Below the pieces are notes generated by a model, which saw nothing but the letters and a program-made list of their open reading frames with translations, searched no databases and was not told where the DNA came from. Made by a program: the position numbers and the translations under genes. A stretch of DNA of 38,118 bases from Gonapodya prolifera JEL478 (taxonomy: Eukaryota; Monoblepharomycota; Monoblepharidomycetes; Monoblepharidales; Gonapodyaceae), in assembly GCA_001574975.1 (NCBI GenBank), contig KQ965793.1:217572-255689 (forward strand), given 5' to 3'. Shown here one piece after another: positions 2,442 to 35,083 of the stretch (positions are counted from its first letter, which is position 1; every line of letters starts with the position of its first letter).

Positions 2442-2949
2442 AAAATTTTATCCTCGGCTGAAATCGACTCGTGAACTCTCTGCGCCCGGCGGGAAGAACC
2501 CCTTACCCGTCACGTCAGACCACGGTCGCGACTGCCTGTCCCCGCGGAACAACAATGGAACAGCGTGCGAGACTTGTGCAGAGAGCAGGCGCGCAGCGCC
2601 GACAAGATTAAACCATTCATTTTTGGATACCGAGAAAGACAGGATGCGTGTGCAAAAGCAGGCAGGATTAGTGCTCCAATTGAGGGGCAGCAAGATCGGT
2701 TCGGTCGGCAGAGAGGACTGGAAGGACGAGAGTAGGTCGTCACGTCGATATCGCTTGTATCCCACATCGTGTTCCACGGGTCCAGCGCGCTCGGATAAGA
2801 AAAGAGTATAGCGAACAAAGTGATTCATTGTGTCGCGCAAAATATCCACCGGAGGTTGGACAGAGAGTCAGGTTCCGTATGTGTGAAACGGTCCTCACCT
2901 TTGAACGACCAAATCTTTGAAGTCCAAGACTGTTGAACAACTTCCATCG
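2442..2949. other. no gene recognised
   Basis: Open frames occur on both strands but none shows family motifs, plausible splice structure or a convincing start. The transporter homology stops at about 2441, so this may be the outer duplication breakpoint. Confidence 0.4.
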
Positions 2950-3489
2950 TCAATGGCGAAACCCATTTTTGGGGGGGGCACAAGCGGCGCCTTTTGCCCA
3001 GTTATGAGTTCTGAAACTCAGAAACTCGGACTCTACCAGCAACCCAGTCGTGAGATTGAGACTTTCTTTATATTTCCGCCCGAAATGCAAGGATCTTGTG
3101 AGCCGCGACGAATTCAAGCAGGGTTGTCGAAACCAGCGACCCAACTTCTGCATCGTCAATTCCTCCTCCGGTAGGGGGATCGATATGAGCGGCACGACAT
3201 CCTTAGGCAGCTCTTTTGCGAGAATCGTCTCGAAACCGCGTTTCGATTCGCGATGGATCGGTTGGAGGTGGGTTGGGAGGGAAATGGTTTGGAGGAGTGT
3301 ACTGTCGGTGGCTTGCGCAGATGTGAGCGTCGACTGGAAGCAAGCGAAGCTGGATTCCCACTCCCACTGATTCGTTTGACTGCATCGTCCCTTTTCAATC
3401 CATCCATTGATTGCTTCCGACGGTTGAACACACGACCGCAGGAACCGTACTTTGGATGACACCTGTTGGGCCGCAGCCTTAAGACTCAT
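2950..3489 (-). CDS. hypothetical protein, 179-codon uninterrupted frame
   Basis: A single frame runs from ATG at 3489 to a stop at 2950, divergent from the F-box gene with only about 34 bases between the two start codons. I recognise no domain. The product would be basic and polar with no signal peptide, membrane segment or repeat; a patch reading LAKELPKDVVPLISIPLPEE looks protein-like but is not diagnostic. The frame could be chance, or the 5' region of a spliced gene. Its only support is length and a head-to-head position that would share a promoter. Confidence 0.25.
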   Translation of the reverse strand: MSLKAAAQQVSSKVRFLRSCVQPSEAINGWIEKGRCSQTNQWEWESSFACFQSTLTSAQATDSTLLQTISLPTHLQPIHRESKRGFETILAKELPKDVVPLISIPLPEEELTMQKLGRWFRQPCLNSSRLTRSLHFGRKYKESLNLTTGLLVESEFLSFRTHNWAKGAACAPPKNGFRH

Positions 3490-3523
3490 TCCCTTTGGAT
3501 CGCACTCATCTCTCGGCTATAGC

Positions 3524-4827
3524 ATGAGACAGACACGCAAAGCGGCATCGAAAGCGTCGGAGCCCATCAGCCTCCATTTGAAGGGAGAGAGTCACACGAA
3601 GAAAGCCACCAGTGAAGGTTATTCTCCAGGCCTTTGATAATTTGTCACTGACACAGATACCGCAAAGCAGAATCAGTTGCAGACGCACTCGAGACCAACA
3701 TCCTTCCGGCAGTACCAAAGCGGCGATTGAACAACGATCAGGAGCTCGAAAACGACGGTGAGAACGAGTCACCACCCAAGCGGCAACGGAAGAGCAAGGA
3801 CAAGAAGGAGATCAAAGAGCTCGCAAACCTTCATAATTTACCGCTGGAAATTCTTGAAAGGATCGTGATGTGAGTTGGGGCAGGTAGAATCGTGTTTTCT
3901 TATCATCGTGGTCTGGACGACGTGATCCGGAAACCATCAAAGGAACTTGAAGCGCTGCTCCAACGCAGTCGCCCGATTGGCTCTAGTGAACAGAAATTTA
4001 CATTTTCTGGTTGGTGGGCTGGATTTCTGGAGGGAAGTCGCCATCGTTTCCCCTTCATGTCTTCGTCACCCCTCGTGGTTTCACAAGACGTCTTTCGTTC
4101 AGAAACTCCACTTGTCACCCCCAAATCCAAGGACTCGGAAGTACCGCACTTGGTTTGCGGTCGTTAGAAGGAAAGGGTGAGTGCGGATGAAGGGAAGTTC
4201 GAGCTAATGACCAACTTCATGAAGCTATTTGTCCCCGCTCAGCACGAATCTATGCCATTGGTGCTACGAAATCGTCCCCCAAAACGACTTGCACATCTTT
4301 GGTCCCGAGCAATGCTTCGCCCGTCTCTGCTCCACGTGCTGGGTGCGCAAGTGGCAGTCTGAAAAGATCAAGATGGCAGTCGCTGCGGCGGTAGGAGCAG
4401 GAGCAGCACCGGTTCCGACTCCACGAGTGCCGGGCAAAAACCACAAGTCGGGAAAGATCAACAAGGGCGGCTCGAAGCACTGCTACCACATTTCTGATGC
4501 GGACTTGGTGAAACTCGTGAGTGGCTCGACGGACCTCTGAGATGCGAATTTAGATACGACGCGTGGTAGCACATTAACGTCTTTGATAACAAAGCCATGC
4601 GTGAACAGGTCTGGCCCCAGTCTGGTCGAGGATATACCAAGCAAGTTTGGGAGGAGGTGAGCTGTCGATGCCGGAGCTCGTCATCCCGCCACACGAGTTC
4701 ACCCTTTTATTGGCTCCAGACTTGCCATCTTTTGGACGCTTTTGAGTTGGAGAGAGAACGGAATCGGACCTGCGCTGCGACTCTCAGAAAGTGGACTAGG
4801 AGCGCTAGCACGTCAGGCACTGAGTGA
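3524..4827 (+). CDS. F-box protein with a downstream Cys-rich (putative zinc-binding) region
   Basis: Six-exon model with all phases closing: 3524-3617, 3677-3869, 3943-4176, 4243-4516, 4570-4656, 4720-4827 (about 329 residues). A basic Lys/Arg-rich N-terminus, including PPKRQRKSKDKKE (a possible nuclear localisation signal), leads into an F-box-like segment, LHNLPLEILERIVM, continued in the next exon by CSNAVARLALVNRNLHFLV and WREVAI. F-boxes bind Skp1 and recruit substrates to SCF ubiquitin ligases. After the F-box comes a cluster CHWCYE...CFARLCSTCW, a CxxC...CxxC pair that could bind one zinc; a Gly/Pro/Lys-rich stretch and CYHISDADLVKL follow. Alternative choices exist for the second acceptor (for example 3659) and the C-terminal end. 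The substrate is unknown. Confidence 0.7.
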
Positions 4828-14213: not shown

Positions 14214-15165
14214 CGCTGCGGCGTGTGGACCTGGGAAAAGGCAACAACGTGTGGGTGTGAACTGTGGTCAACTGAGACTGCAAGATTCTCAAGAAAATTA
14301 GTACTTTGATTCGTTGAAAACCACTACCAAGCTTCCCGACCTCTCCAGCTTTCGTTGCGAGTCTCCTCTTTTATGGCTGCCCGGCCGCCTACTTCCATTC
14401 CCAGATCCTAACGACATTGCCATTAGGTGGACACTAGCTGTCCTAAAGGCGGGGCTGCTCCCCTCGTTCTCTCACACCAAAAGGAAGGAGATCAGGTGAG
14501 GACGGGATGCCAAACATTCCAACCCAGATTTGGCGCGCCCAACGTACACAGTTATGCACGGACTGCTGTCTCATATGTACTGAGCCATCCTCACTCCTAA
14601 ATTTCTATTCGTCTCAATTTACATTCGCTTCTACTGAAACCTCACCTATAATGACAGCATGCAATAGAATGAGAATGTAAGTACTGCAGTTGAGTTGGAA
14701 TTACCGACAACCTTTTTCACTTTGACGCTTCGCAACGAGCTGAAGACGGAACCGAGACGGAGCGGAGCAATAAAATCAGTTACTATCAGGTAAGTACATG
14801 ACGGTTTTGCTTATCTCTCCGAAAAATGAACCCCGAGAGTCTCCCGAAACTTGGCGGCAGAGCGGGAGTCTTGGCACACGTTTCCGGCAAGTTCCACGAA
14901 ACATGGTCAAATTACGATATGTTTGCATTAATCAATACCGTCACCGCGTCGGGTATTCTGCTGGAAATCTGAGGCCCTTGAAAGCTTGCAATACGATACC
15001 TGGTGTCAGAATAAACTTCGCCACGTGCCACGTGAGGTTTCAGATATACACACCTCCGAACTACCTGCACCCGACCTGTGGTGGAAAGGGCAGGTGGCGG
15101 ACGGCAATTAATGCAAGGGAGCCGCGCCGATATAAAGCACCTGATGCGGATGATGCCTTGCCACA
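14214..15165. promoter_or_regulatory. divergent intergenic region between PRS and the Cys-rich gene
   Basis: No coding motif recognised on either strand. It must hold both promoters. On the plus strand TATAAAG at 15130-15136 lies 30 bases before the ATG of the Cys-rich gene, which would imply a very short 5' leader or a TATA-like chance match. Confidence 0.45.
15130..15136 (+). promoter_or_regulatory. TATA-box-like element
   Basis: TATAAAG, 30 bases before the chosen start codon of the Cys-rich secreted protein gene. Confidence 0.35.
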
Positions 15166-17214
15166 ATGCGGACAATTCGGGCAGCGATCGCTGTCTTCGC
15201 GACGGCCATCGCACTCACACTCGTCCCGCACGCCACCGCTCATAACGGCATTGCAGACTGGCAGACTTGCAACCCCGGACTCGACTACTGCGTCTCGTCG
15301 AATGCCGTCTGCTGCGTGGTTAAAGCCGACGTGGCAGCCAACAAGTTCACTTGTCGACCCAACGCGGACTGTGGGTTGGGCAATGTGTCTTCCTCTCTGT
15401 TGTGGTTTGGTTTCTAATGTATTACATGCGTCATCCACGTCGGCAGCATGTGCTGGAACCGCCACCAAAGAATGGGTCACCTGTCAAGTGAACGGCCAAA
15501 CGTACTGCTCTGCACAGTTTGACACGTGCTGTGTCGCTCAGGCGGACGCAAGCTCGGGAAAGCGCACGTGCAGGTGAGAGCGCTCGGCAATGTGGCATGC
15601 CTCCAATTCAGTAAACAACCTCCATTTGCATTCACATGTGACCTCGACTTGAAAGACCCTATGGCCAAGGTAAGCCTCCACCTCCCACCTATCACGAACT
15701 ATGAAAAGTCCTCACCAATTCCCTCTCGGTCTTTCCACCCCTCTTCGCAAGACTGCGCTTCGTCGTCGACCCCACCGCCACCACCCCATCGACGCCACCT
15801 CCACCACCGCCGCCCCCGCCTCCCAGTAGCGGAGTTACCGACTGGGCGACATGCTACCCTGGATCAACGTGGTGTGCGAACTCAGCTTCTCAATGCTGTA
15901 TCGCAAATGGGGATGGTAACAAGTACACGTGCAGGTGGGTTGTTTGCATTCTATTCAAAGCGATGTTCACTCGAACTTAGCACTGTTTGATGTTCAAGGC
16001 CATACGGTCAAGGTATGCCTTCTTCTTCTTCCGACTGACGTTTCCAAGTATTTCTAATACCGTAACGGTCACACAACCCAGACTGTGGTGGATCATCACC
16101 TCCACCTCCACCATCGAATCCACCACCACCACCACCTCCCAGTGACGGAGTCCCCGACTGGGGGACGTGCTACCCAGGGTCGACTTGGTGCTCGAACTCG
16201 GCTTCCCAGTGCTGTATCGCTGATGGAGATGGAAGCAAATACACGTGCAGGTATGATCTTTGCAGTGCGGTTTTATAGTGGATTGGGGTTTGTTTGACGT
16301 TGAATTTGTGTGCATTAACTAAATACTGACACCTTGAAGACCGAATGGTGATGGTGAGTGAGCTCTTAGCCCCTATTCGTGGACCCTCACTCACACGCAA
16401 CGTTTACTGCAGGCTGCTCTGGTGGAGGCGGTGGAGGAGGAGGCGGCGGGGGAGGCGGCGATCTCGTGGCCGACGGACAATCATGCAGTCCCGACGGACC
16501 AGGCTGCTCGAACCCAAACTCGGTGTGCTGTTGGCCGTATGGGTACGCTGGATGGTACACGTGAAGGTGGGCAGTGACAGTGCTTTGTTGGCAATGGGGA
16601 TGTGGACAAACCTGAACGAATACCGGTTCGTCGAAACCAGGGATCCATCATCGTGTTACAGTGGAGTGCCACCACCTCCACCACCTCCACCGCCAGGTGG
16701 CGGCGGTGGCGGAGGAGGAGGAGGAGGAACTGGAACACCGACTGCAATCCAGCAATGCGAGGGCAGGAATCCCCCAGGTAGAGATCCCACGGATCCTGGC
16801 GCGTACGCTTATGCATGTTACAAAGATGCCAAGTGCTGCTTTGCGTGAGTATGTCTACTGATACAACGAGGTTCCGCTTCCCCTGAAATCTCCTTTTCAG
16901 GGAGCTGGGAGAATTCTTTCTCTGTCCAATGCTTGGCTTCATAACAGGGGCTCTTACCCTTGAGGAGGTATACCTTTCGCAGGCTTCCATGTTGCCGCAG
17001 CGTGTGAATTGGTGAGCCATTCCTGTAATGACCCTTTGATGATGGGGAAGCATAATTGATGGTGACGACTCTTCTTTTCTAACACGAATCAAAGGAGGCC
17101 CAAACTACTGCAGACAGTCAGGACTGTGCTAACCCTACCAACTGCCGCTGCGTTTACAACAGTTACGGAACGGATGGGAACTGTATCCACAATGGTCGCA
17201 ACATCTGTTCTTGA
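15166..17214 (+). CDS. secreted modular Cys-rich protein with Pro-rich and Gly-rich linkers (many exons, some micro-exons)
   Basis: The start ATG at 15166 gives a signal peptide (RTIRAAIAVFATAIALTL... cleaved near ATAHN). Modules follow with the pattern W-x-TC-x5-C-x6-CC-x(8-10)-(Y/F)TC-R: module 1 15241-15370, module 2 15447-15573, module 3 15752-15934, module 4 16082-16250, and a variant module 5 16413-16560 (CSPDGPGCSNPNSVCCWPYG). Three 14-nt exons (15656-15669, 15999-16012, 16340-16353) join modules, each adding P-(Y/N)-G-(Q/D). Linkers: PPPPPP-type runs before modules 3 and 4, Gly13 before module 5, Pro9/Gly11 at 16672-16730. The final exons (16641-16844, 16983-17011, 17095-17214) encode further Cys pairs (CYKDAKCCFA; CANPTNCRCVYNS), stop at 17212. 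No known domain assigned; a cell-wall, adhesion or carbohydrate-binding role is a guess. Problems: a frame break in the C-run near 15779 (one C short), TGA in place of TGC in module 5, and an unresolved phase between the exons at 16844 and 16983. Confidence 0.7.
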
Positions 17215-17519
17215 ATAAACGAGCCGAGGGCGAGCGTGATTTTGTACTCAGAAGTTTTGATGCTCACGTACTTATAGGTGAAATAGAAGTGAAGTGACTA
17301 CTCCATCGCTCTGGTGGTAAACTGTGGAGAAGCGGACAACATGTGTGGTTAATGGGTGGCCATGCGGTCCCAACCACCTCTCAAGTTCTCCATCATGCAA
17401 AATTTCTTGAGGTGAGAGATTCGGGACGTATTCGGCACTCGTCTTTTTCTGACAATCAGCCCGTGCACTTTTCTCCAAACTTGGACCAAAGCAAACCAAG
17501 TCAGCTCTGCGATCGCGCG
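17215..17519. other. short intergenic region, Cys-rich gene to ENP2
   Basis: Nothing recognised apart from flanking untranslated sequence; the promoter of the ENP2 gene must lie here. Confidence 0.45.
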
Positions 17520-20233
17520 ATGACGGAGACAGCGCCGCTGCAGGTGCTGCACTCGCAGACGAAAGTCTACAAACTCACGACGAATCAGCGGACGGCGCTG
17601 CCCGACTGGCTCGCTAAGCAGAACAAGAGACTCCGATACGACCCAGGTGAGTCCACTGCTCTTCCTTTTATCTATACTTCCTACTTACGCTATTCCCCGA
17701 TGACAATCATCCCTTATAATGGCCTCGCTACCCACTGTCACTCCGAACTTCAGAATGGCGAAACCGGATTGAGCTGATCCAGGACTTTGGGTTTCCCGAA
17801 GCTTGCGTACGAATAAAACCCACGAGAGATGGAAAGCACATCGTCGGAACAGGTACGCTCCTTCAGGCCTTCGCTCCGACGCCGCTATCTTACTAACTCT
17901 CCCACAAGGGGTCTACAAACCCCAAATGCGTGTCTGGGAGCTCTCGGACTTGTCCCTTAAGTTTGAACGACATACGGACTGTGACACAATCCAATTTGAA
18001 GTGGGTTTCTTCGGTGTTGCTGGGAAAAACGGGAAAAGGACTCCAACCCACCTAATCACCCTCATTACTCGCATGTTCAGCTGCTGTCGGACGACTGGAC
18101 AAAATCCGTCCTCCTTCAATCGGACCGCACGCTGGAGTTCCACGGACAAGGAGGAATTCACTACCGAACTCGTATTCCCAAGGTTCGTCTGACGTGTCTC
18201 CTGCTGCACCACGACCGCCGAATCTCCTAAAACACACCTTCAGTTCGGCCGCGACCTCGCCTACCACCAACCCAGCTGCGACCTCTTCATTTCCTCTTCC
18301 TCGCCCTCCATCTACCGCCTCAACCTCAACCGCGGCACCTTCCTCCCTCCCTTCGAAACAGCCACTACAGGCATCAACGCCATCCAAGTCAACCCGCGCC
18401 ACGGCCTCGTGGGTATGGGTGGCGAGGAACTCAAAGCCGAGTTTTGGGACCCCAGGGCACGACGACGCGTGGCATCGCTGGACATCACACCCCACGTCGC
18501 GCAATACATCCTCCCCACCCTTACCTCATTGGACCCCTCCAGCCCCGCCTACGTACCCCCAGCACCGCCCTCAATAACCGCCCTCTCCTTCGACCACGAC
18601 GGCTTGCACATGGCCGTCGGAACGTCGTCGGGAACCGTCCACCTCTTCGACTTGCGCAACCCCTCACCCCGCCTCATCAAAGACCACGGCTACTCCGAAC
18701 CCATCACCTCGTTATCGTGGCACGGGGGGTCCTCTTCGGTGGTCTCCTCGTGCCGGCGTGCCGTCAAGGTGTGGAACCGCGACTCGGGCAAACCACTCGC
18801 GACCATCGAGCCGGAGTACCGCGTGAACGATGCGGCGCTGTTCGACGACTCGTGTGGGATGATTCTGGCCGCAACTGAGTCCCAGTACGTCGAGACGTTT
18901 TATGTCCCCGAGTTGGGACCCGCTCCGCGGTGGGCGTCGTTCTTGGAGAACTTGACGGAGGAGATGGAGGAGGTGCATCATGGTGGTGTTGGGTATGACG
19001 ATTATAAGTTTGTTACGAGGAAAGAGTTGGCAGAGTGAGTTGTTTGTTTGTTGTTGTGTTCCTACCGGGTCCAGGTGAACCTAACCTACCGAACCTATGT
19101 TTTTCGAACCCCATGAAGTCTGGGCCTGGACCACCTCATCGGCACACCCGTCCTGCGGGCCTACATGCACGGCTTCTTCGTGGACCTCCGCCTCTACCAA
19201 CGCGCCAAGTCCATCGCGAACCCATTCGCCTTTGACGAGTACCGCCGCAAACAGGTCGAGGAGCGTCTGGCCAAGGAAAAGACCACGCGCATCTCCCGGC
19301 CCGACTTGAAGGGACTCCCCAAAGTAAACAGGAAGCTCGCGGAGCGTATGTTGAGGGAGGAGAAGAAGGCCGCGAGGAAGGCGGCCGGGAAGCTTGCAGA
19401 AGGGGAAGAAGGGGAGGCACCAGCCGCCGAGCAAAGGGATGCAGCTGGAGACTTCCCCGCCGCCGCGCCCTCGGCTACTGCGCTTTCGGACGCGCGGTTC
19501 AAGGCCCTGTTTGAGGACGAGGAGTTCCAGGTGGACGAGGAGTCGGCCGAGTATATCTTGCACCACCCTGAAGCTCGCGAGGCGAAGCGGGTGGCGAAGA
19601 GGGGTGTGGAGAGCGATGAGGAGGATGGAGGTAGTGACGAGGAAAGCGACGTGGAGAGTGAAAGTGAGGAAGAGGGTAGCGACGAGGAGGACGAGGAAGA
19701 GGATGAGAGCGCAAGCGAGGAGGACTCGAGGCGAAGGCCTATTGCAAAACCAGGTGCGTCATCACGGTTCAGCACCCTTCGCTGTACCCAACTGACCCGT
19801 GTCCCATTCACCACAATCAGCATCCACCCGCCGCCCACCTCGTCTCGTCCCCGTACGTCCCGGCTCCTCCACATCCTCCGTCTCTTTCGCCGAGCGTGCG
19901 CGCACCGAGGGTCGACCACGCGAGGACCGCGCCGGCTGGAGCGGGTCGCGGTCTGGGGAGAGGGAGATGCGGTTCATGCCACGTGGCAAGAGGGGCCGTT
20001 TTGAAAGGGACGAGGATGAGGGTGAAGATGGCGGGGAGGAGCGCAGGCAAAAGAGGGGTGTGAGAGCGCTGAAACTCAGTGGGGGGGGAGGTGGAGCGTG
20101 GAGGGGTGGAAGAGGAGGTGGACGGGGAGGCGGGGGCGGAAGAGGGGGTGGACGAGGTGGTGGACGAGGCGGTGGAAGGGGAGGAGGGAGGGGAGGGAGG
20201 GGAGGAGGAAGGGGAAGGGGAAGGGGACGGTGA
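17520..20233 (+). CDS. ENP2: ENP2/NOL10 nucleolar WD-repeat protein, 7 exons
   Basis: A component of the small-subunit processome for 18S rRNA maturation in the nucleolus. Exons 17520-17646, 17754-17852, 17909-18000, 18081-18182, 18244-19034, 19119-19753, 19821-20233 close in phase, about 752 residues. The family core is clear: the N-terminal VYKLTTNQRTALPDWLAKQN, then WRNRIELIQDFGFPEAC, GVYKPQMRVWELSDLSLKFE, a beta-propeller (IYRLNLNRGTFLPPF, FDHDGLHMAVGTSSGTVHLF, WHGGSSSVVSSC) and the hallmark GLDHLIGTPVLRAYMHGFF followed by FVDLRLYQRAK. An acidic stretch (about 19600-19735, Glu/Asp/Ser-rich) and a C-terminal basic tail follow. The last exon ends in an extended RGG/GR-rich segment of about 45 residues from 20074 (GGGRGGGRGGGRGG type), which may bind RNA; the sixth acceptor (AAG at 19118) places Asp where relatives have an acidic residue. 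Confidence 0.95.
20070..20230 (+). repeat. RGG/G-rich low-complexity repeat in ENP2
   Basis: Purine-rich imperfect repeats of GGNGG(A/T) units encode the Arg-Gly-Gly tail. The plus strand has many runs of three or more G, so G-quadruplex formation in DNA or RNA is possible. Confidence 0.8.
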
Positions 20234-20658
20234 TCTCGGTGGTGGGAAGACATGATTATTTTGTACATAGGAGCACTCTCATAGATGGTACTGCACGTAT
20301 GCAATTAATAGAGACGACGAAAGGGGTCTCAAACTGACGCTGGATACGTGGGCGTCATTCAGCACTACTTGAAAATGTATTTTTGGCTGTCGATCAACTC
20401 GAGTGCGTCTCCAAAGCCCAAACAAGAAAAATATGACAAGACCACTATTACTCTTATTGCAAAAGGTCAGCTCAAGGGGAGAAAATTGGGTTCAAAGATG
20501 GGAATGATGGGGGAATAGCAATGGCTGCTATCAAGGCGAATGCTTGTTTTGATCCATCTGCTGGTGGGTTGCAACTCCTCTGTGAAAGCAGGTAGCATGA
20601 GGGTAATAGCGTCGGCAATAATGATTGATCTTGGAATGCACAGTCTCTCCTGGCCAGT
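20234..20658. other. intergenic between convergent ENP2 and RING genes
   Basis: 3' flanks only; nothing else recognised. Confidence 0.45.
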
Positions 20659-22434
20659 TTACGTATAGAAGGTTCTCACCTGAACAGACATACCGATGTG
20701 TGGAGCCACGTCACATCCTTAGTACTCGACGAGCAGCAAGAGTACTCACAACTTGATTGATGTATTTCCTACATATGGGGCACTTCTCCCGTTTATAGTG
20801 GAGGTTCGTGGCACAGAACGTGCACAGGGCGATGTGGCCACTAGAAAGAAACCCATTCGTTCAGCTCTCGAGGACAGAAGAGGTTAGCATTTGAGATCAC
20901 CCCACCATGGCACGAGTACGGCTTGCTTGGGACGGTCGAAGCAAACGACCTAAACCGAAGCGTCCATTGAATGCAGATCAGAATGCTCCACTGACAGGAA
21001 GCTACTCACGCAATGCTCGCTGCCTCTCGCAGAGCCTGCCCCTTCTCCACATCCACCTCCACTTCCACTTGCTACTGGCATCTCCTGCACCATCCCTGCA
21101 CCGTCCATCACATTGGCCTCCTCAGCAGCTCTCGCCAGCGCCGCCTCGAGGAGTAGCTGGACGTCGAGCACCGCGTGGTTCCCCGGTGAGAGCGACTCAG
21201 CGACGGCGATGACCCGCGAGGGCGGCCAGTCCATGATCATGCAGACTTCGCCGACGGGGCCGGATAGGACCGAGGCGAGGGGTGTGGGGGAGTTAATGGG
21301 CATGCGGTCGGGAAAAGGGGTGGGTGCCGGCGGGCCAGGGTGATGGACGCCGTTGGACCAGGATGAGAAGCCCGAGGGCGGGGGTGGTGGGATCTGAAGC
21401 TGGCTGGAGGACGTGGGCATAAAGCGGGCCTGGCGAATTGGGGGTGGCGGGGGTGGAGGTGGGATGTTGGACCTGGGCAAGTCGTCGGCTGCCGTGCGCA
21501 TCCAAGCTTCCAGCACGGCAGCTAGAGAAGATTGGTTTGACGGACGAGTGAGAGGTGGCGGGGGTGGAGGTGGTGGAAGTACCAAGTTCCGAGGAACGGG
21601 CTGCGGTGGTGGGGGAGGAATGACGCTCCGCCCCCGAGATGTGGGCTGCGGTGGAGGAGGGGGAATGACGGCACTCCCAAGGGTAGTAGAGAGAGGTGGT
21701 GCTGGTGAAAGTGGGGGTTGCACCCACGACACGATGATGGATGACCTTCGAAATGGTAATGGCGGCGGGGGAGGTGGAGAAGGTATGACGCCACTAGGTC
21801 GAATGGCGTGGGTTGGAGGAGAGATAACACCTGACCGAACTGGTGGAGGAGGGGGAGGGGGCGCCCGTGGGATGTTGTTCATATCTTGTTGTATATACGA
21901 AGGTGGCTGTGTGGCGCTTGCCAGAGGTGTTGACGTTGCCTCAGGTACAGGACTCAGTGGAGCAGACTGCTGCTCCGAGATGAATGGAACGTTCTCTTCG
22001 CTTACTGGAGGGGAAGGGAGAGACTCCCCCAGAGAGCCCCCGCTCCTGCGATCGGGAAAGCGTGTCGGGAGTGCCGGTGGGACGACGCGTGCGGGCGGTG
22101 GAGGTGGGGGAACGCGAGGCAGTGAGCGATACTGCGGGTGAGACGATAAAGATCCCGACGACAAGCGCCGGTGTGTTGGTGGAGCGGGTCTCGCCACGGG
22201 GAGAATTGGGGGCTGACGCAACGGTGGCGACATGACCCGGCGGACGGGAGGCGGCCCGGAGCGACGCGTGGAGAAGGATCGCGAGAGACCTGCAGGGAAG
22301 TAGCGTGCGTGAGTGTTTGGCAGCCAGAGAGTGCGGTCACCATATATGGAATTATATGCGCGGCCGCGGTGAATTCGCAACTCGCCTTGCGACGGCGGCA
22401 GAGTCGCTGCATTCGCGTTTTCGGGCTCGTCCAT
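20659..22434 (-). CDS. proline-rich protein with C-terminal RING-HC finger (putative E3 ubiquitin ligase), 4 exons
   Basis: Exons on the minus strand: 22434-21010, 20949-20906, 20840-20750, 20679-20659; phases close, about 526 residues. Residues 1-400 are Pro-rich with at least eight runs of 5-8 prolines (IPPPPPQP, VLPPPPPPPPLTRP and similar), the kind of tract that profilin, WW or SH3 domains bind. Near residue 400-440 an alpha-helical patch (IMDWPPSRVIAVAESLSP, LLLEAALARAAEEA) precedes the RING. The RING is spread over three exons: EHC-VVCFDRPKQAVLVPC, GHIALCTFCATNLHYK, REKCPICRKYINQVV, i.e. CxxC-x11-C-x-H-x3-CxxC-x10-CPxC. The last seven codons give VRTFYT, similar to the hydrophobic RING tail of IAP-type dimeric ligases (known families end RTFLS or similar). 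Expected role: substrate ubiquitylation; partner unknown. Confidence 0.88.
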
Positions 22435-23160
22435 GCGCGTCTTGGTAGAGTGAAACGGTAAACGAAAGGAAGATCCCTTGTCGAAAACAGAAGATACCCC
22501 TTGCCGTGGCCGGGTGATAGTTCAGGACCAACCTGAGTTCTCCTGAGCAGAAGGTTTTCTTATTTTTATTAGATTCAGTGGAGTGTTTGCAGAGTAGAAT
22601 TCGTAATGTTTTTGCATGTTGTTTTCGGGTACAACTTATTCTTCCACTTCGGGAATTAACTGCAGCAGTCATTTCTCGTTCGTCGATCATGCTCGGCAGC
22701 CGTCTGTAAATCTCTCGGACTGCTTGTGATATGACCTTTCTTTGGTCAGTCATTCACCCCACATAGCCAAGAAGTATTTTAACATTCACAATTCCCGAAT
22801 GATATTCTTCCTTGGACCAGCCATCAACGATCAAGACAAAAACGATAGGGTTATAACCGACGCAGCATAAGTCACTGGGAGATATTCCGATACAACCCTA
22901 TGCCACCCCACAGACGGCCACCGCACGTGCCCCACCTGTTTTTGTCAAAAGAACAACAGAACTCGAAACCATAATTTCACCTAGTGTCTGCACACATACA
23001 ATGTTACACGTACTGCAATGTATTTAGAAATAATTTCACTTTGAATGACGTCGATGTCCCCAAATAAAGAGTAATTCATAGGATCACACGTAATTTGTAT
23101 TGCCCGCCGGCAAAGTTGCGCGCAAGAACCCATTCCAGCTCCATACCGCAATTCATCACG
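22435..23160. other. intergenic, nothing recognised
   Basis: About 0.7 kb upstream of the RING gene and downstream of the ankyrin gene (both minus strand). AT-richer than the coding regions; no gene motif, tRNA or repeat recognised. Confidence 0.45.
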
Positions 23161-24619
23161 TCAATCCTGACACTTCGTCATCTGTCCATCTGACCAAACG
23201 CACAACCCTATCCACGTCCGCTCTCTATAAGAAATCACCATCTTGCGATCGCAGTAACCATTGTCAAGGTTTACAGCCCACGGGTCCCCTCCCTTCGCCA
23301 ACAAAATGGGGAGCATCTTCATCGCGCTTCTTTGTGTATTTGACGCAAGTATAAGCGCCATCCTGCTCCTACAATTGACTGATACTCCACGAGACAGAAG
23401 TATATTCAGAAATGCGACTGTACCGACTTGCTGAACCGCCATTAGGAAAAGGTCTTTCTTTCAAGCTTGAAATGCCGTGGTCCGCAGCTGCACGAACTGC
23501 TTGAACAGCCTGCGGCCCCAAATCTGATGTGAAAACGCTGCGTGCAAGATCGTGCTGATGATGCAGCGACACTATTTCTGCTCGACCATGTCGTGCAGCA
23601 GTGACAAGGAGGTGATCCTGTACTACGCGATTCCATGGTACAATTTCGAGAAGAAACTTCACCATCTCAAATTTGCCACTCGCCACCGCAGCGGAAAGCG
23701 CTTGCCTGTCCTGGGTATGAGTGTAATCCCCACCACTAAGGAGCAAATTCACAAATTTCATTGAGCCCCTCTTGGCTGCTGCCACAAAGAGATGATTTTT
23801 CTGACGATGGAATACAGAGCGGGTGGATGGATGTGTTGTTTAAACTTTCAGAACTGTACTGTCATCTTCCGACAAAGGCAGGCGGAGGAAAGGCAGATCC
23901 TTAAACTCTCTCAATTCAGGGCTCGCATCCAAAAAAGGCGTCCAAAACGTCCATTCCCACATTTCTGCATGCCCATTGGAGAGCTCTGTGTCCTTGTTGG
24001 TTGGTCGTCGCCCCTTTATAGAGCAAGAGTCGCACAATCTCGATGTGATCCCCTTCTGTGGCACTAATGAGAGGGTACTAGTCACTGTTAATGTGCGCAC
24101 CCGATTCGATCAAAAGCTCCACAATCTCTTTGTGAGATTTTTCAGCCACAGTTGCAAGGGCTGCATCACCAGCACGACTACACGCTGGCGCTCCAGCTTC
24201 GAGTAGGAACCTGACAACGGTAACGTTGCCATAGTTTGCTGCCAGGCGAAGCAGCATTCCATCCCCAATGCCGGGTCCGCGGCGTTGCTGATGAGCAACT
24301 TCACCAATTGCTTTCCTTGAACGAATTGCCACCTCGAGATGGAATACAGGTGCAAATGGCCAGCGGCGTGCATTTTTCCCGTTTACATTCCATGGCACGT
24401 GGAGAGGACCTGTTGGAGCACTACCAGATCACCATGGTGTATTTCCGCCAGCAGGGCATGTTGCGTGGTGGAATAGTGGCGTAGCGCCCGTGCTACAATA
24501 CCATGTGGATCCGCAAAGATCGAATACAACGACTTGTTGAGAGAACTGTAGGGAAGGGCGAGTCTGTGTGGGCAGAAGGTCCAGATTCGCGACGGGGATC
24601 CTGACGCCACGACATCCAT
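23161..24619 (-). CDS. ankyrin-repeat protein, frame broken (possible pseudogene)
   Basis: Read on the minus strand. An N-terminal segment from 24619 (LALPYSSLNKSLYSIFADP, then VARALRHYSTTQHALLAEI and GDLVVLQQVL) resembles an F-box-like or cap segment followed by ankyrin repeats. Repeats follow: QLVKLLISNAADP / LLRLAANYGNVTVVRFLLEAG / ALATVAEKSHKEIVELLIESG (24370-24080), then GSMKFVNLLLSGGD, ALSAAVASGKFEMVKFLLEI, LLVTAARHGRAEIVSL (23785-23560) and MKMLPILLAKGGDP (about 23300). These fit the x-LLxAA--G---VV-LLL-G pattern. The frame must change by one base near 24271-24275 (a CCGGG run), and stops lie between the repeat blocks at about 24070-23790, which could be introns. Ankyrin-repeat proteins bind protein partners; nothing indicates which. 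A frame opening at 24716 might be an earlier start. Confidence 0.55.
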
Positions 24620-24807
24620 CGTTAGTGCTAAACGGGGTGGGAGAGTTGGGAACAGATTCCACGGAAGAAATGCCGGCTAAATCTGAAGAGTCTGATCTTC
24701 GTCTCAGACATTGCATTATATACTCCGATACAAGTTAGACTGCATCCAAAAGCCCGACATTGGGCCTAAGAATATGAATTGGGTGGTTTACTTCATCGCC
24801 CATCCAC

Positions 24808-26160
24808 TTACGGCCCAGGCTTCCCTCCGTCCACCACGTGCTCCCCATCCGTGACGAAGCTCTCCTCATCCGAGGCCAAAAAACACCGCAAATGAGGCCA
24901 CTTCAGAAGGATCGGCGGCCCGATTCGGTATGCTATGCTGCTCAAAGTGTTTATAGGCCTCCGGCGCCATTTCCCGGAAGTTCTTTAATAGAGTCTCGTC
25001 AAATCTATACAAGTGTAGAAAGACATGACAAACTTACTTGGAACTGCACTGGAGTCGATCCGAAATTAATCCCATTTTGAACTTTCAAAGAGGACTGTAG
25101 AAAACGCACCACGGAACTCAACAATTTCGCTTGCTTCTCGCAACTCACAGATAGTATTGCACCGCACTCTGTATCCGCTCACAAGTCGGCAAACCCCTTT
25201 GAGATGCCCCGGACGGCCTACTTGAACGTGCTGTACGAGAGCATGCCTCCCACAGTCCCCATTCCAATCATGGAAGAGATGGTGATGATCGAGGACCATT
25301 CCTACCATACCCCCCCAAAAGCGTGTGTGAGTGGGTTTAAATGACGTTGGGAGGGCATCAGCATCTTACAGTAGCTGTGTTCTTCATATGGAGTGAACAC
25401 CTGAGTGCGAATGAGATCAAGTACGATGAAGGAAGCGGAAGATTTAAGAGGACCCTTGCGGTGAGGACATAATGCGTTGACGCACCATACTTGAATGTCT
25501 AGTTTCATTCACGATCAGGATCACGACTTTGCCCAAAAGTATATCACTATACCTTTTGCCCCCCCTAACTCCCTTCTGTCATATTCAAATTTGTACCTTT
25601 GTCCTTCAGAGTAATGTTATGCGCGCCGCCCTTTGCCACTTTGGGCGAAAGGTCGCCTCCGGCGTTGTTAACCTGATGATGATCATGACGTTGTGACGTG
25701 AGTTCGAGGCTCCAGAAGTTGAATGTCAGGTGATGCGTGCAGAAAGCGTACCAGAATATCAAGAACGCCCCTGATTCGGGAGAACCAAATGATGCGAGCA
25801 AGAGCGCAGGAGCTTCTCAACGATTCCTTTTCATCTTCCTTGTGGGGAGAGACGAACAGCGGCAGCCAAATAGCTTTACAGCTAGCTTTTCGATGATGGA
25901 AACGACCTCTTTGATCGGGAGGCCGGATGATGGGCACGACGATCAGTTCGATTCAACCACGCCGACACCAAACTGTTGGCGGCAACTCGCGACGCCAGAC
26001 ATGTTCTCACCTTTTCCGTCCTGTTCCCGTTTTGGAAAATCGCTAATGGCGACTTGTGCCCTTTCCCTGGCGAAGGCGAGCGATATCGCCCGCCGGATCC
26101 GCTCCGAGGCGGACCCGTTTACGAGGGTGACTCGTTGGAGGCCCTGGATGTGGAATCAAG
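24808..26160 (-). pseudogene. decayed short-chain dehydrogenase/reductase (SDR) gene with introns
   Basis: Pieces in the right order on the minus strand: N-terminal VTLVNGSAS then RRAISLAFARERAQVAISDF (26130-26035; the GxxxGxG cofactor loop reads SERIR, losing key glycines); AIW...VS.KEDE-like segment (about 25880-25840); QVNNAGGD (about 25690, the NNAG motif); SSIITISSMIG and the YxxxK active site as YSTFK (25285-25221); EMAPEAYKHFEQHSIPNRAA with SEVASFAVF (24975-24880); LASDE..FVTDGEHVVDGG to the TAA at 24810-24808. Breaks: TAG directly after the YSTFK lysine (25220-25218), a TGA about 14 codons later, several frame changes, and an extra base in the T6 run (plus-strand A6, 24878-24883). Splice borders are still visible, for example GTGAGT-type at about 25145 with TTCTACAG near 25096. 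Family: NAD(P)-dependent oxidoreductases of unknown substrate. Confidence 0.65.
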
Positions 26161-26838
26161 GTGGTAGATGTGAGATTGTGTGTGTGTGGTGTGATGAAGC
26201 CGGATGGGAGTTGGCAATGAACGGTGGATATGTTGACTTCCTATCGACATGGTGTAAAAGCCCAGAGAGCGGCGGGCCTTTTAAAGGCGTGGATAGATCG
26301 CTGGGAGACGGATCATCAGTGGGAGACGTGTTTGGCTTATGCAAGGTTGGCGGCGCAAAGATTAGGCTTTTCGCGGATCCAACCTCAGTGTCACGTGGTC
26401 CAGACCGCTGGATCGAATCATTAGCAGAGTAAGAGCTCGCGCGAGTCTTATTGGAGTCTATCGCCGCCAAAATCCTTTTTATCTGACGACATGGCTGTCT
26501 TCGCAACAACATCGATCGGAGTGGATTGATCCCACCTTCGCCGAACTTGCTCCGAACCTGGCCTGCCCGATTTTTCGTATGTACCGAAAATGGGGATAAA
26601 CTACAAAATATCCAACAGAAAGTTCAAGAACAAGAAGTTCGTGTGGGAGTCGGAGATGAAAGATGAACGATGGAGCCGATTGGCTTACACGGAGACAGCC
26701 GCCAGTCGGGCAAGGAGTGCCGCCAAGATTAATTTAGAGATTGAGGAGGTGAATAGTCGAGTTCAGCATGTTTTCGATCCACATCATCTTTCTAAACGGG
26801 GGTGATCTGTCGATGAATAGCCCCGCCCAAAATCCTCA
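26161..26838. other. no gene confidently recognised
   Basis: Several overlapping open frames on the plus strand, none continuous or with recognised motifs. A piece at about 26405-26590 reads plausibly as protein (NPFYLTTWLSSQQHRSEWID) but lacks a start and ends in a stop, so it may be a fragment of another decayed gene or chance. It also holds the promoter of the following gene. Confidence 0.35.
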
Positions 26839-27445
26839 ATGCACACTTTCGATCCCCACCTACGAGCCGTAGACCACCTTACATCCGAGTCTGTAGACGG
26901 TCTCCTCTTTCGCTCGATTGCGGAGGCAGTCCAACGCAATTTGGCGGACGACGACGATGGGACGCTCGGGGATGCCATGGCAATGGCTAGTGGAAAACTA
27001 CGAGGGGAGTTGGAAGAAGAGGATGTTGCGAGGATCAGGGAGGACGAGGAGCGGGAAATGGATGATTCAATTTGCTTGACTGCGGTGAGGGAGGAGTTGC
27101 AGAAGGTGAAGAAGAGGGAAGAGGAGCTCATTCGAAGAGCGTGGGACATGCAAGTGGTGCTTATTTGCGTTTCATTGCTGTTGACGGGTTTAGCTGTTTT
27201 AATCAAGTTGATCTTCCTCCCCGCAGGAATACGCGCGTGGCCCTGTGCCTTATTGGTATGAGCTTGCAGGACGCGACTTCAATTACGAGCTGGTCAAGTC
27301 CCGCCTTGTTCTTCAGCCGGGCTTTTCGGCATTACAGGCAATGTGCTTCCAGAGGAAAGACCAGCTGCTGCGACTGGAGGATTTGAGGCGGAAGGTGGAA
27401 GGGGGGCAGAGGGCCGTGTCGTCGTTTGATATTGCGGTGCCATAG
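26839..27445 (+). CDS. hypothetical coiled-coil protein, 2 exons
   Basis: Exons 26839-27153 and 27227-27445 join in phase 0 (donor GTGGTG, acceptor CCCGCAG) to give about 177 residues. The middle (about residues 50-105) is rich in Glu, Arg and Lys with heptad spacing, for example ELQKVKKREEELIRRAW, and probably forms a coiled coil. The second exon begins EYARGPVPYWYELAGRDFNY and ends with another charged helix (RKDQLLRLEDLRRKVEGG). No signal peptide or membrane segment. I do not recognise the family. The clean splice and amphipathic pattern suggest a real gene; upstream exons cannot be excluded. Confidence 0.5.
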
Positions 27446-27845
27446 ATGGATTCCTCGAAAGACGAGCCGGCAATTGCATGTTGATGGTCCCTGACTGTAA
27501 GGATAACAGGCAATGCCGGGCACTATCAAGAACAGTTCCGCTCCCTCACGTGTTTTTCTCCATGTGTTGCTTCACTAAACAGACGCGATATATTGCTAAA
27601 TGTTATTTTTTCACGTATTAACGCTACGATGTCCTAGACACGAGTGTACGACTCCCAACAGACGTGAGGCACTCGCAAAGGCTAAACAGAAAAAATCGCT
27701 ATTTAAAAGCGTGAAAGATTGTCTCCCGTCCCTGGCTGTATTCGTGTCGTGAATCCTTGATGGGGACTCGGCATGTGCATTGACTTTCGGCCGCACCCGT
27801 GCAAGCCTCCAATCCGGCCAATTGATACCCCTCACCTTTACATTC
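27446..27845. other. intergenic, upstream of the RRM gene
   Basis: Nothing recognised. Long minus-strand frames that cover 27611-28345 are antisense to the RRM gene and show no family motifs. Confidence 0.45.
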
Positions 27846-29549
27846 ATGGCGGTATTCGGGCGCGAGGACGAAGAAGTGAGAATCGACTTGGATGGTTTCA
27901 CCTTCTGCTGCGTCTGACGCTCAGCCGTTTCCCTTTGTCCTCGCTCGGTGACCAACGCCACTCGCTCCTCTGTCCCAATCTTGCGTCTCCAATTTCTCCT
28001 TTTCCGACTATTCCTGGCGGAGCGCAGATATGCACGCTCTTCGTCGTGGGCTTTCCGGAGGACATACAGGAGAGAGAGTTCCAGAACATGGTCGGTGGTG
28101 TTTGTGCTCAGTCCTAAAAAAAGTCCTCTCCTCTCACCGACCCGCTCTCGCACGCCGCGCTCACTTGCGCACATGATCTCGCGGGAATCTCTCCGGACGC
28201 TCGTGTAGTTCATTTTCAGCCCTGGATTCGAGGCAGCGGCCCTGAAGAAACCGGAGGAGGAAGATCCGGTCATGAGGCGACAGATTGTGAGTTCTTCCTT
28301 TCGCCTCAATCTCTCGCTTTTTGCTCGTACTAACCAAAATTGCATTTGTCGACCATGTTTTCGCGTTTCGGCGGCCAGATTGGGTTCGTCAAGTTCCGCA
28401 CAAAACAGGACGCTTTGGAGGCGAGAGATATACTAACGGGTCGAAAGGTTAGTTCGTTCTCTACCGAATGATGATATCCGCATTATGTATGATACATTTT
28501 GCCCTTTTATCCCGCCCTTTTCAAACTCCCAGGTGGACGCACATCGCGGCTCCACTCTCAAGGCGGACCTTGCTCGAAAGAACCTCCATACCAGACGAGG
28601 ACTCACCATCGATTACGCACCGAGCAGCAACTACTCCTACGCTACACACGTTCAGCACTACGCAAAGCGATACAACAGTCCCCTTCACGTCAACCCCGCC
28701 CAAATGCGATTCCAATACCCAGCGGGCCATGTTCCCTTCCAGCCACACGCTGACCGCTCGGGAGCAACACCAAGGCAGTACGCACTCCAAAATCAGCCGG
28801 GATCGATGAGCCCTCTGTCACAACAATCGTATTTGTCCGAACAAGATCTCTCATACCCAGGAACTTTCATCGGCAAACCTCCTTCGCGACCCCCGTTCTC
28901 TCCGCAACTTCCTGTGGCCGCTGAACCTCCTGATATGCACCGACGGGGACGGTCCTTCCCCGACCTATCCCCCATTCTCACTCGGTCAGCGAGCTCCGGG
29001 CCGGCTCCAAATCGAGACCCGGGAGGGCTCGCAGCTCTTGCTGCATCCCACCTGCCAAGCCCATCTCCTGACATGGGATCACTTTCCGCTGATGCAGTGG
29101 ACCAGTTTGGTTCATACGAGGTCCATCAGCTTAGGTCTTACAGAGGTTACGGCTCAAGCCTTGGCTCACAACTGGGCCACCGCTCGTTCCCTCGTTCGGT
29201 TTCTGAACGTGATATCTCTACCATTGACACATCCCAGTACGCTCCGTTGACTCCCCTCGCCTCCCTCGGCAGCTCGGGCTCGGGTGGGGATCGTGGGGCA
29301 CCATACAACGCCCATTTCGGGGGCTCATATCGCGGTTACGGGTCGAGTTCAGACTCTGTGAGTGGATACGCCGACTTCCTTCTGGAGCGTGACGCGACGA
29401 GAGTGAGCTCTCACAACGGAAGGACACTGAGTGGGTCAAGTTCTGCCGACCTGGACAGTTTGGCGAGCGCAGAACTCCTCAGTAGCTCTGTGGAGAAACT
29501 CTTACTGGAGAGTGGTAAGCTCAACGAAGGCGCCAGGGTTGGAAATTGA
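27846..29549 (+). CDS. RRM protein of RBPMS/couch-potato (Whi3-like) type, 5 exons
   Basis: Exons 27846-27875, 28028-28090, 28209-28286, 28379-28447, 28533-29549 close in phase, about 418 residues. The single RRM starts almost at the N-terminus: RNP2 is CTLFVVGFPEDI, then FSPGFEAAALKKPEEEDP, RNP1 is IGFVKFRTKQDAL, then EARDILTGRKVD and LKADLARKNLHTRR. The FxPGFE and ST-LKADLAR-N features place it with RBPMS/Cpo proteins and fungal Whi3-like factors, which bind CAC-containing mRNAs and regulate translation or cell-cycle mRNAs. The remaining about 310 residues are low-complexity, rich in Ser, Pro, Tyr and Gln with motifs RSYRGYGSS repeated twice (at about 29137 and 29327), suggesting a disordered, condensate-prone tail. 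The start at 27846 was chosen because exon 1 (GREDEE) splices in phase to RNP2. Confidence 0.85.
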
Positions 29550-30154
29550 GAATGCAGTCGTTTCGGCACTGTATTCTCTGGAGTCCGGTCGCCACACCAC
29601 GGAGAACACTAGCAGCCCACATGATGCCCCTTATACCCGCAAGCAGCTGGACAAGACTACTGCCGGGACATTTTTCAGTAACTTCAACTCCCTTTTAAAG
29701 CAACCATGCACGACTGCATGCAGACGATGACAGGATACCACCCCCTTTTCCATTTTTTCCACCAACCACGTTAACACTACATCAGCGGATTACCTTCTTG
29801 CTTTTTTTCTCTTTTGCTTTCCATGACACTCACATGACCCATCACCCACACAATCCTCCGCGGGGTCGAAGCTCACGTGAAGGTGGTTCTCAAAAATCTC
29901 CAGACATACCAGCGGAAGAACGATTTCTGGTCTTGTTCCATCTCGTCAGTCTGCTCTCTGGACACTAACGTTAGCTGAACCACATTGGTCCTTACTTTTA
30001 TGTAAATTTCAAGTGTACTGAAAGAAATTTGGAAGTTCTGTATCCTGGGATGAAATTATATTTTAGCTTCAAAAGTCGGTTGTTCCTACAATACAGCATA
30101 TTGAATTCTGTGAAGCCCACAGAACTGGAAGTGATTGATTCACCAACCGGATCA
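29550..30154. other. intergenic between RRM and RTT106 genes
   Basis: 3' flank of the RRM gene and promoter of the RTT106 gene. No gene or RNA recognised. Confidence 0.45.
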
Positions 30155-31863
30155 ATGTACGTCACAAATCCGCGTTCGTTCCTCTGGTGATTGACCTCAC
30201 CGTTTCTTTCGGTGAACCTGGCTGGCATCGTTCGACCACCAACTGATTTCAACCCGCGCCGTCTCTTCAGGCTAGCAGCAATTCACGACCCGATTCTCCG
30301 CGTCGATGTGGAAACTTTTGTGGGATCCAATCCGGCATCAGCTCCATTGATTGGGCGAATCATTGCCCACTTTGTCGGCGTCCCACCTTCGGAAATCTTG
30401 ATCGGGAATGGGAAGCGGACCGTAGCGGACGTGGAAGAGGATTTGAAGACCGAAGGATTTTCGAACGGTGGCCTGGTACGAAGCGGGTCGTCTCAGAAGA
30501 AACCCCGCATGGAAAGTCCCCCGTTCCAACCCTTGTTCACTGCCCGGGAGGTTTCTTTCCAGAGTCCCATCCGCAAGAAGCTTGACCTTGTCATTGGACA
30601 AGACGGCCTCAGACTTCTCGGAAAGGGAGGGACGTCAGAGCTTGATCTTGCCCTCAACAATCGTGAAAGGAAGGTTCTCTGCGTTCCAACTCCCGACAAA
30701 GCGAAGGAAGGACATTTTACGGTCGCAATTTTTTTCGCGACCGAGTCGGGAGAAACATCAAGCCCAATAGGGTCGGCTTCACAGGTGGAGCCGCTTGTGT
30801 TCACGCTGGACGATAAACCCTTGAATGTGGTCGACTCATCCAGTTCGGTTACCTCCACGAGTCTAAAGAAGGCAGACTTTCTTCGCTCACTCTCCCAAAA
30901 TTTGCATTGCTCTGTTGTTGAGCCTGACATTGGCTCTTTCCAATCGTCCCGAAAAACGACTGCTTCAGGTGTGAAGCATCGAGGACCGAAGTATTTTGCA
31001 TCCGTATACCTCGGAGCAAAAGAATCTTTCCTTTTCCCTCTTGCTGAAGGTGTCTTTGTGGGAATGCGGAAGCCTTTCTTGTTCGTGCCTGTGCAGAATG
31101 TGAGTAACATTTTCTGTACTTGATATCCTATTTTCGGTGCTAAGCATTCCTTCCAGATTAAGAGCATGAAGTTGTCATCAATTGTGGGTGGCTAGTAATA
31201 ACTGTTGGGGCGACTCCGAACTATCACAGCACTTCTGCCTTTAGACATCTCGAACCTTCAACTTGGACCTGACGGTTAGCACTGAAGTAATCACAGCACC
31301 TGGTTTTCTCCCCAAACCTTCGGCAAGCGGAAGTGCAACACTTGAGTTCTCTATGATCGATCACGAGGAATATGAAGGTTGGACTTCTTTCTCGCTTGCT
31401 CCTGGCCGTGTGTCTTTCTACCGATATCCTTAATTTGCGCTTAGGTATTATGTCATACATTCGAGAACAAAAATCAGGATGGGATACTCTATCTACGGGC
31501 GTTATTACCGAGCGAGTCGACGGGGAAGCACACACCACCGATTCAAACTTGGACGAAGGGGCAGAGGTGGCGGACCTGAGCAGTGATGAAGATGATGAGG
31601 ATTACATGTCCACGGAATCCAGCGAGGAGAAAGCTGTGCGCGGATCCAGAAGAATGACGCGATCGCGAGCAAAGGGTGTTGCTTTGCAAGAACTACCGGA
31701 AGATGGGAAAAGCGACGAAGATTTGGACTCAGATTCAAGTGAAGATGAAAGTAGTGGGACCGGTAGTGAGAGTGACGTTGAAAACGGTGAAGAGAGTGAC
31801 GCTGGAAGTGACGAGGCGATGTCCGCAGCAGAAGAAGACGTTGATGAACTGGCGGATGGTTGA
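30155..31863 (+). CDS. RTT106: RTT106-like histone chaperone, 5 exons
   Basis: Exons 30155-30186, 30271-31099, 31157-31183, 31245-31377, 31445-31863 close in phase, about 479 residues. The tandem PH-like Rtt106 fold is visible: first PH region LDLVIGQDGLRLLGK, LCVPTPDKAKEGHFTVAIFF; second PH region KYFASVYLGAKESFLFPLAE, VFVGMRKPFLFVPVQN, SRTFNLDLTV, then EFSMIDHEEYEGIMSYI, a segment diagnostic for the family. The C-terminal about 120 residues are acidic (SSDEDDEDYMSTESSEE; DSDSSEDESSGTGSESD), as in histone chaperones. Known role: binding H3-H4 acetylated at H3K56, nucleosome assembly and heterochromatin silencing. Exon 1 is short and supported only by phase (ATG at 30155); the non-ATG frame upstream of 30271 has a stop, so some upstream exon is needed. 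Exon 3 is 27 nt. The gene ends 92 bases from the CFAP52 stop (convergent). Confidence 0.88.
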
Positions 31864-31955
31864 TCACGGTCCATGATTGACTCTTTTGTGCTGCATGATA
31901 TAATACCGACAATTGCATACACATGCTTCTAATAAGTGACAATCAAACACCCAAT

Positions 31956-34299: not shown

Positions 34300-34410
34300 C
34301 TCGCAAAAGGAACGTGAGGAACAATCAGTTGGACCGTGTTTAATCGGGAGGGAACTTTCAGTTTGCCAGCATCGCTTGTGAAGTATCCACCCCCCGATAT
34401 TACACCGCAG

Positions 34411-34986
34411 ATGAAACTTGTCCGATTAGCGCTCACAATTCTCTTGGCTCTAACACTTTCGATTGCTGCGCAAGCTTTCTTCGAGCAGGTTTAGTACGAT
34501 ACCTCAATTGACACTTCTATCCACGATCCTTACGTTCCGTTACCCCCGGTCCAACGTTAAAGTTTTTCCAGGAAGGTCAACGCGGTGAAGATCACCGGGA
34601 GGAATCAAGTGGAACCGACAGAGCAGCGAATGGGGGTGGGTGAAAGGTTTCGATTCATCCACTTCGAATGCCTTCTGAGAACCTCTGAACAAAATTTCAG
34701 ACTGCCCGGGTTATCTCTGTAAAGACACTAAGATCTGCGTGGACTTTCCTAAGGTGGGTGGTTCGAATGCATAAGATGTTGAAACCGCTAGTATGCTAAC
34801 ACTTCAACATGTGATAGGACTGCCCCGTAAGTTCATGAACATACACGTCAGCCGAAAAGTGACAGCCGCAACCATAATAACCGGTTTATCGATTTCCAGT
34901 GCAAGAACGCGTTGTACCGAAAGTGCATGATTGGTGTGGACCATTTTGTTTGTGTGAGAGGCGGTGGTGAATGTCCTCTAGCGTGA
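34411..34986 (+). CDS. LCL2: LCL2-family small secreted protein, 5 exons with a 9-nt micro-exon
   Basis: Exons 34411-34488, 34572-34635, 34701-34753, 34818-34826, 34900-34986 close in phase, about 96 residues. Exon 1 is exactly a signal peptide (VRLALTILLALTLSIAAQA). The mature protein has the LCL2 Cys pattern: CPGYLCKDTKICVDFPKDCP, CKNALYRKCMIGVDHFVCV. In yeast LCL2 (long chronological lifespan 2) is a small secretory-pathway protein linked to ER-associated degradation; the molecular role is not established. The fourth exon, GACTGCCCC, encodes only Asp-Cys-Pro and is flanked by a TGATAG acceptor and GTAAGT donor; without it the conserved CPC-type cluster would lose a cysteine. Fungal LCL2 proteins are usually about 120 residues, so this one is slightly short in its linker. 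Confidence 0.85.
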
Positions 34987-35083
34987 CAATTTTCGAGAAT
35001 GGGTAGTGGTTTTGTCAGATTTTGCCATAAAATTTGTGCGCAAAGTTTTTCCGCACTGGTTCGTCCCTCCAACTCGAGCCATC

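Follow-up and report, generated by a model that had tools for sequence, protein, structure and literature searches.

A family of six-cysteine modules, in arrays and beside GH5-type enzymes, as a candidate undescribed carbohydrate-binding-like module

The gene at 15166-17214 (+ strand) of the window, that is, of the whole 38-kb stretch of DNA analyzed here, raises the question of what its repeated cysteine modules are and what they do. It opens with an ATG at 15166 and closes with a terminal TGA at 17212-17214. The initial annotation had described its product as a secreted-looking modular Cys-rich protein, and this description holds: the N-terminus is signal-peptide-like (judged by eye), and the Cys modules that follow are joined by Pro and Gly linkers. 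The exon borders are predictions; they come from aligning the gene to a paralogue on contig C42 in this genome, an alignment in which exons are well kept and introns poorly kept. This paralogue, an open copy with 11 exons by predicted borders, encodes a signal-peptide-like start, five Cys modules with three 14-nt micro-exons, Pro/Gly linkers, and a Cys-rich C-terminal domain for which no Pfam match was found. Upstream of the ATG, a block at about 15118-15150 is nearly letter for letter the same in the C42 copy and contains a TATA-like box (approximately 15131-15143, + strand) of presumed function.

All predicted exons lie on the + strand. Exon 1 (15166-15370) encodes the signal-peptide-like N-terminus and, from 15247, Cys 1 to 5 of module 1, the C-terminal tail of this module (36%) lying beyond the intron. 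Exon 2 (15447-15573) carries Cys 6 of module 1 and Cys 1 to 5 of module 2, whose tail continues in the first of the gene's three 14-nt micro-exons (15656-15669). Exon 3 (15752-15934) provides Cys 6 of module 2, a Pro linker, and module 3; the second micro-exon (15999-16012) extends the tail of module 3, and exon 4 (16082-16250) supplies its Cys 6, another Pro linker, and module 4. After the third micro-exon (16340-16353), in the tail of module 4, exon 5 (16413-16566) opens with 13 Gly and holds Cys 6 of module 4, this Gly linker, and module 5. Exon 6 (16641-16844) encodes the tail of module 5, a Pro and Gly linker, and the start of the Cys-rich C-terminal domain, which continues in exon 7 (16901-17011) and ends with the terminal TGA in exon 8 (17095-17214), the left border of the latter being uncertain by a few bases. 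The annotation had counted at least four modules; five are present, and the fifth carries a TGA in place of its fifth Cys. It had also assigned one exon to each module, which is right for Cys 1 to 5, sharing a single exon, and wrong for Cys 6, which sits in a later one.

The repeated Cys modules are real. The strict pattern C-x5-7-C-x5-7-CC-x9-12-C occurs four times in the six frames of the window, always inside this gene, and in 100 dinucleotide shuffles of the window its mean count was 0.02, with a maximum of 1. Each module has 40 to 45 residues and six Cys, spaced C-x6 (x7 in module 2)-C-x6-CC-x10 (modules 3 to 5) or x12 (modules 1 and 2)-C-x6-C after predicted splicing. Of the spacing first proposed, C-x5-C-x6-CC-x(8-10)-C, the x6 middle loop was correct, and the x5 and x8-10 loops were one or two residues short. 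In module 5 of the C42 gene, the sixth Cys follows the fifth after x4 instead of the x6 of the other modules, again by predicted splicing. Between Cys 5 and Cys 6 lies one intron in module 1, as in the modules of contigs C90 and C91, and in modules 2 to 4 two introns with a 14-nt micro-exon between them. The modules begin with D-W-x-T-C and have K-Y/F-T-C-R-P near their end. Among 10 spliced modules from four gene groups, all six Cys and the Thr and Arg flanking Cys 5 were invariant. The Trp that follows the leading acidic residue was present in 28 of the 34 aligned module rows (absent in 6), and a Tyr or Phe preceded Thr-Cys in 24 of them (absent in 10). These aromatic positions may have a stacking role; since they are not universal, a shared stacking surface is uncertain.

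Searches of Pfam and NCBIfam with the modules gave nothing at the cut-off, and the earlier view that no named family has this layout agrees with what we found in Pfam, NCBIfam, and the PDB. In particular, no strong profile match of the modules to a described domain family was found, the outcome that the initial annotation had named as able to refute it. The 12 + 10 module sequences had no match to PF00187 (CBM18, Chitin_bind_1) at E values up to 10 and none to PF00734 (CBM1), nor did any module match PF02013 (fungal dockerin, CBM_10) in Pfam at E values up to 10. With hhalign, the modules aligned to the CBM18 domains of this genome (six taken) at a probability of 2.2 and to its CBM1 domains (also six) at 0.4. 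Several weak Pfam scores were discarded as below the cut-off or compositional: Disintegrin (0.076), PUA_4 (0.033), PRIMA1 (5.1), IglC (0.03, in 1 of 12 sequences), LCE (0.0045, in 1 of 10), TIL_2 (0.0083, for the last window exon), and proline-run matches to the C90/C91 and C54 tails. Two scans of viral contigs and one of prokaryotic contigs revealed no convincing relative; the three loci from these scans were rejected because on translation they were short chance matches in unrelated frames, without the Cys pattern. No such module is named in the open-access literature that we searched, and the family looks undescribed.

CBM1 is a small disulfide module of cell-wall enzymes, and differs from the modules in Cys order and aromatic pattern. 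Fungal dockerins (CBM_10) occur on GH enzymes as short tandem repeats rich in Cys, a layout like that of the modules described here. The same genome lists 24 CBM1 and 20 CBM18 places and has the flagellar family IFT46, in line with the zoosporic fungus proposed by the annotation. In the chytrid Batrachochytrium dendrobatidis, CBM18 arrays occur with and without enzyme-like domains (PMC3569864). These hevein-type arrays share with our modules a small Cys-stapled unit beginning C-C-CC-C-C, several copies per protein, the presence or absence of another domain, and expansion in a chytrid. The CBM18 pattern, CG-x7-C-x4-CCS-x4-C-x6-C-x3-C, nevertheless differs from C-x6-C-x6-CC-x10/12-C-x6-C, which has neither CG nor CCS.

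The Cys order had also been compared with cystine-knot frameworks. The knot spacing rule in PMC6889267 is C-x2-7-C-x3-10-C-x0-7-C-x1-17-C-x4-19-C, and modules 1 to 4 fit it after predicted splicing (x6/7, x6, x0, x10-12, x6). The modules on contig C5 exceed the rule in their first loop, one of the four by a smaller margin than the other three. A single AlphaFold model, built from four window sequences with module 1 in its unspliced reading, was poor (pLDDT 64.4, pTM 0.35); it matched no PDB fold at E values up to 10, and the two chains compared with it gave no match at Z 2. The sole PDB sequence match of the modules was Xt3a, which looks knot-containing, at an E value of 0.53 over 19 residues, and is not significant. 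As far as sequence goes, the cystine-knot likeness is formal only: order and spacing agree with the rule, but the model is poor and had no fold match. The modules share Cys order and spacing with knottins (inhibitor cystine knots). With SCREPs, a layout class of secreted proteins with tandem Cys-rich domains (PMC6262176), they share tandem repeats of a Cys-rich domain, and the window-type proteins have this layout, with secretion judged by eye from the N-terminus. They have no significant sequence or fold match, and, unlike either class, some are joined to a GH5 enzyme.

Protein searches of the genome placed modules on the window contig (C63) and on C42 (two copies), C54, C9, C91, C90, C104, C39, C32, C44, C8, and C5, with one weak extra match on C25. 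We count 36 modules on 12 contigs, that is, 33 pattern rows minus one out-of-register C5 match plus four C5 modules read separately. This number takes in both C42 copies and the stop-bearing module 5 of the window gene and leaves out partial pieces found by tblastn alone (e.g., on C25, C32, C42, C54, C90, C91, and C39). By their predicted sequences, the six-Cys modules form a multigene family whose C-terminal partners vary: the Cys-rich domain on C63 and C42, with a distant version on C54; a domain of about 110 residues on C90 and C91; and a GH5 domain on C104, C9, and C39. The module genes on C5, C8, C32, and C44 have short or ill-defined ends. The C5 locus (L023, G000:C5:410500-417500) has four modules at about 2586-3760, in which a Gly/Ser-rich stretch is inserted between the first two Cys; by eye, the sequence retrieved downstream showed no recognizable enzyme. 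The 110-residue domain of C90/C91 was also found at G000:C33:46500-51500 (L027, 39% identity) and G000:C137:67000-71500 (L028, 35% identity). On C33, another type of Cys-rich repeat and more than 20 consecutive Pro precede it. The family offers a readable case of module and exon shuffling, with one kind of module and at least three different C-terminal partners, one of them also standing behind another Cys repeat.

The join to GH5 is best seen on C104. The frame downstream of the modules scored 26.3 bits against PF00150 (GH5), modestly over the cut-off of 23.5, and the joined model of modules and GH5 scored 26.1 bits. The frame matches solved mannanases in the PDB, namely 4qp0 (E value of 8e-8, the best usable row), 3pz9, and 8gf3; the top rows were designed repeat proteins in which one 23-residue stretch was matched repeatedly, and they were set aside. 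Its Asn-Glu, which we take to be catalytic, aligns with the Asn-Glu of 4qp0 and 8gf3. The catalytic domain of C104 resembles these mannanases, as by paralogy do those of C9 and C39, while the window gene has no GH5 and the N-terminal modules have no PDB match. A search of the genome with the C104 domain returned three loci, C104, C9, and C39, the latter two counted as GH5 by paralogy to C104 and the last one fragmentary. Two module stretches lie N-terminal to the GH5 at all three. By predicted splicing, the last C104 module runs through C-R-P-G-G-Q-D-C across an intron and a Thr linker then leads in frame into the GH5; an extra intron must be assumed between the two modules, since the linker frame otherwise has a TGA. 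On C9, again by predicted splicing, the path into the GH5 runs in frame through a 14-nt micro-exon and a Pro linker. In the predicted gene models of C104 and C9, a separate module and a carbohydrate-active enzyme thus belong to a single protein. A genome-wide GH5 search found at least 12 places and missed the GH5 of C104, C9 (53 kb), and C39, so that it says little on module-free enzymes. The C104 frame (L018, G000:C104:39500-44500) ends in a stretch that is hydrophobic by eye and could be a membrane or GPI-type anchor.

Many CBMs first came to notice because a separate module recurred next to an enzyme that cuts polysaccharides. The reading we prefer, to which we give an even chance, is that the six-Cys units make up an undescribed family of carbohydrate-binding-like modules, occurring in arrays or on an enzyme. 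Because some modules are joined to an enzyme that cuts mannan or cellulose, they probably grip polysaccharides, and the substrate-binding role suggested by the initial annotation is strengthened by the GH5 join, which speaks to architecture and not to binding itself. We infer that a secreted protein, spliced as predicted, would carry several such modules on Pro- or Gly-rich linkers, and that each disulfide-stapled module would grip a polysaccharide (mannan or cellulose) weakly, with avidity providing the grip of the whole array. In one architecture, a GH5 mannanase-like enzyme would be kept on its substrate by a pair of modules; in other architectures, that of the window branch among them, five modules and a Cys-rich end without a recognized enzyme would make a lectin-like binder of walls or substrates. 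The other small Cys-stapled binding modules of the genome (CBM1 and CBM18), the low dN/dS between window and C42 modules, the largely kept aromatic positions, and the CBM18 arrays of Batrachochytrium are consistent with this. Against it, the modules match no known CBM, the aromatic positions vary in some rows, the structure model is poor, C104 needs an extra intron, and the enzyme is of a single type at three loci, most module loci showing none. A stronger version is more tentative and, in our estimate, falls somewhat short of an even chance: a new CBM family with its own six-Cys fold, of zoosporic fungal origin, exon-shuffled, and borne both on GH5 and in lectin-like arrays with interchangeable C-terminal domains. 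The separate exons of Cys 1 to 5 and Cys 6 and the repeated intron positions would fit such a spread by exon shuffling.

Other roles are less probable. The modules and their long Pro and Gly linkers might form an extracellular coat or glue, for instance on the zoospore cyst or rhizoid, without a specific sugar site. The arrays and the several enzyme-free C-terminal domains suit such a structural or adhesive wall protein, which we nonetheless consider unlikely, as it leaves unexplained why modules sit on the GH5 type at all three loci. The same short tandem Cys units on an enzyme could instead dock onto a partner protein in the manner of fungal dockerins and assemble enzymes together with array proteins in a complex or on the cell wall, with the enzyme-free arrays as scaffold or partner; docking appears improbable, given the lack of a Pfam match to CBM_10 at E values up to 10. 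Least probable, and quite remote in our judgment, is a cystine-knot array acting like an effector or inhibitor on a channel or protease of other organisms. The knot-type spacing under the rule of PMC6889267, the Xt3a match, and the SCREP layout class (PMC6262176) would agree with it, but that match is not significant, no fold match was found, the modules are joined to GH5, and their low dN/dS is not that of rapid change.

If the preferred reading holds and the modules bind sugars, they would represent a novel means by which an early-diverging fungus keeps enzymes, and perhaps itself, attached to polysaccharides, in addition to the CBM1 and CBM18 modules of this genome. The C42 and C104 genes, which read open, are simple test material, as their modules are short, disulfide-stapled by prediction, expressible, and assayable.

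The history of the window gene can be read against its C42 paralogue. A C42 segment (locus L001) matches window positions 14256-18119 at about 82 to 92% DNA identity, including the downstream neighbor, presumably a NOL10-like gene, and C42 carries the module gene twice, as a tandem pair. No counterpart of window positions 20000-36000 was found on C42. Since 14256-18119 is shared and 20000-36000 is not, the sharing is, on this sequence comparison, a segmental duplication; a whole-genome duplication as the source of the C42 copy was considered and is not supported. Modules 3 and 4 of the window gene are 86% identical, bearing out their description as nearly identical. Their origin by recent exon duplication does not follow: the C42 gene holds a counterpart of each, so the module 3/4 duplication looks older than the split of the two copies, for which dS is 0.44. 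In a module tree of 32 columns, the module 4 pair had weak support (95/49) and the module 3 pair had no clear grouping. Between window and C42 modules, dN/dS was 0.079 over 180 codons, with single modules ranging from 0.042 to 0.236 (dS of 0.24 to 0.95). This low value suggests that the modules stayed under constraint for the greater part of the period after the copies split.

The window copy is itself damaged. Relative to C42, its frame slips by one base after 15785 (in the Pro linker of exon 3) and once more by one base after 16966 (exon 7, C-terminal domain), and a TGA stands at 16562-16564 where C42 has the fifth Cys of module 5. The first C42 copy of the tandem pair is broken and internally shortened, the C54 copy has its start and module 1 in different frames, and only one of the four copies of this branch is open throughout. 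Assembly errors in an intact and expressed window gene could account for this, since one-base shifts make up two of the three lesions and a common source of error could explain the frame breaks of the first C42 copy and C54 as well. We regard this as a minority possibility: the exons of the next gene (17520-18001) align to C42 without any indel, which argues against general base-calling trouble, and the TGA of module 5 reflects a substitution rather than an indel. As a duplicate of the open C42 gene, the window copy has probably become a pseudogene or been truncated recently; either its loss is recent or a truncated product with modules 1 and 2 may still serve. Elsewhere in the window, positions 23155-24589 have a paralogous stretch on the same contig, about 58 to 60 kb upstream (G000:C63:181966-183658), at 73 to 80% identity.
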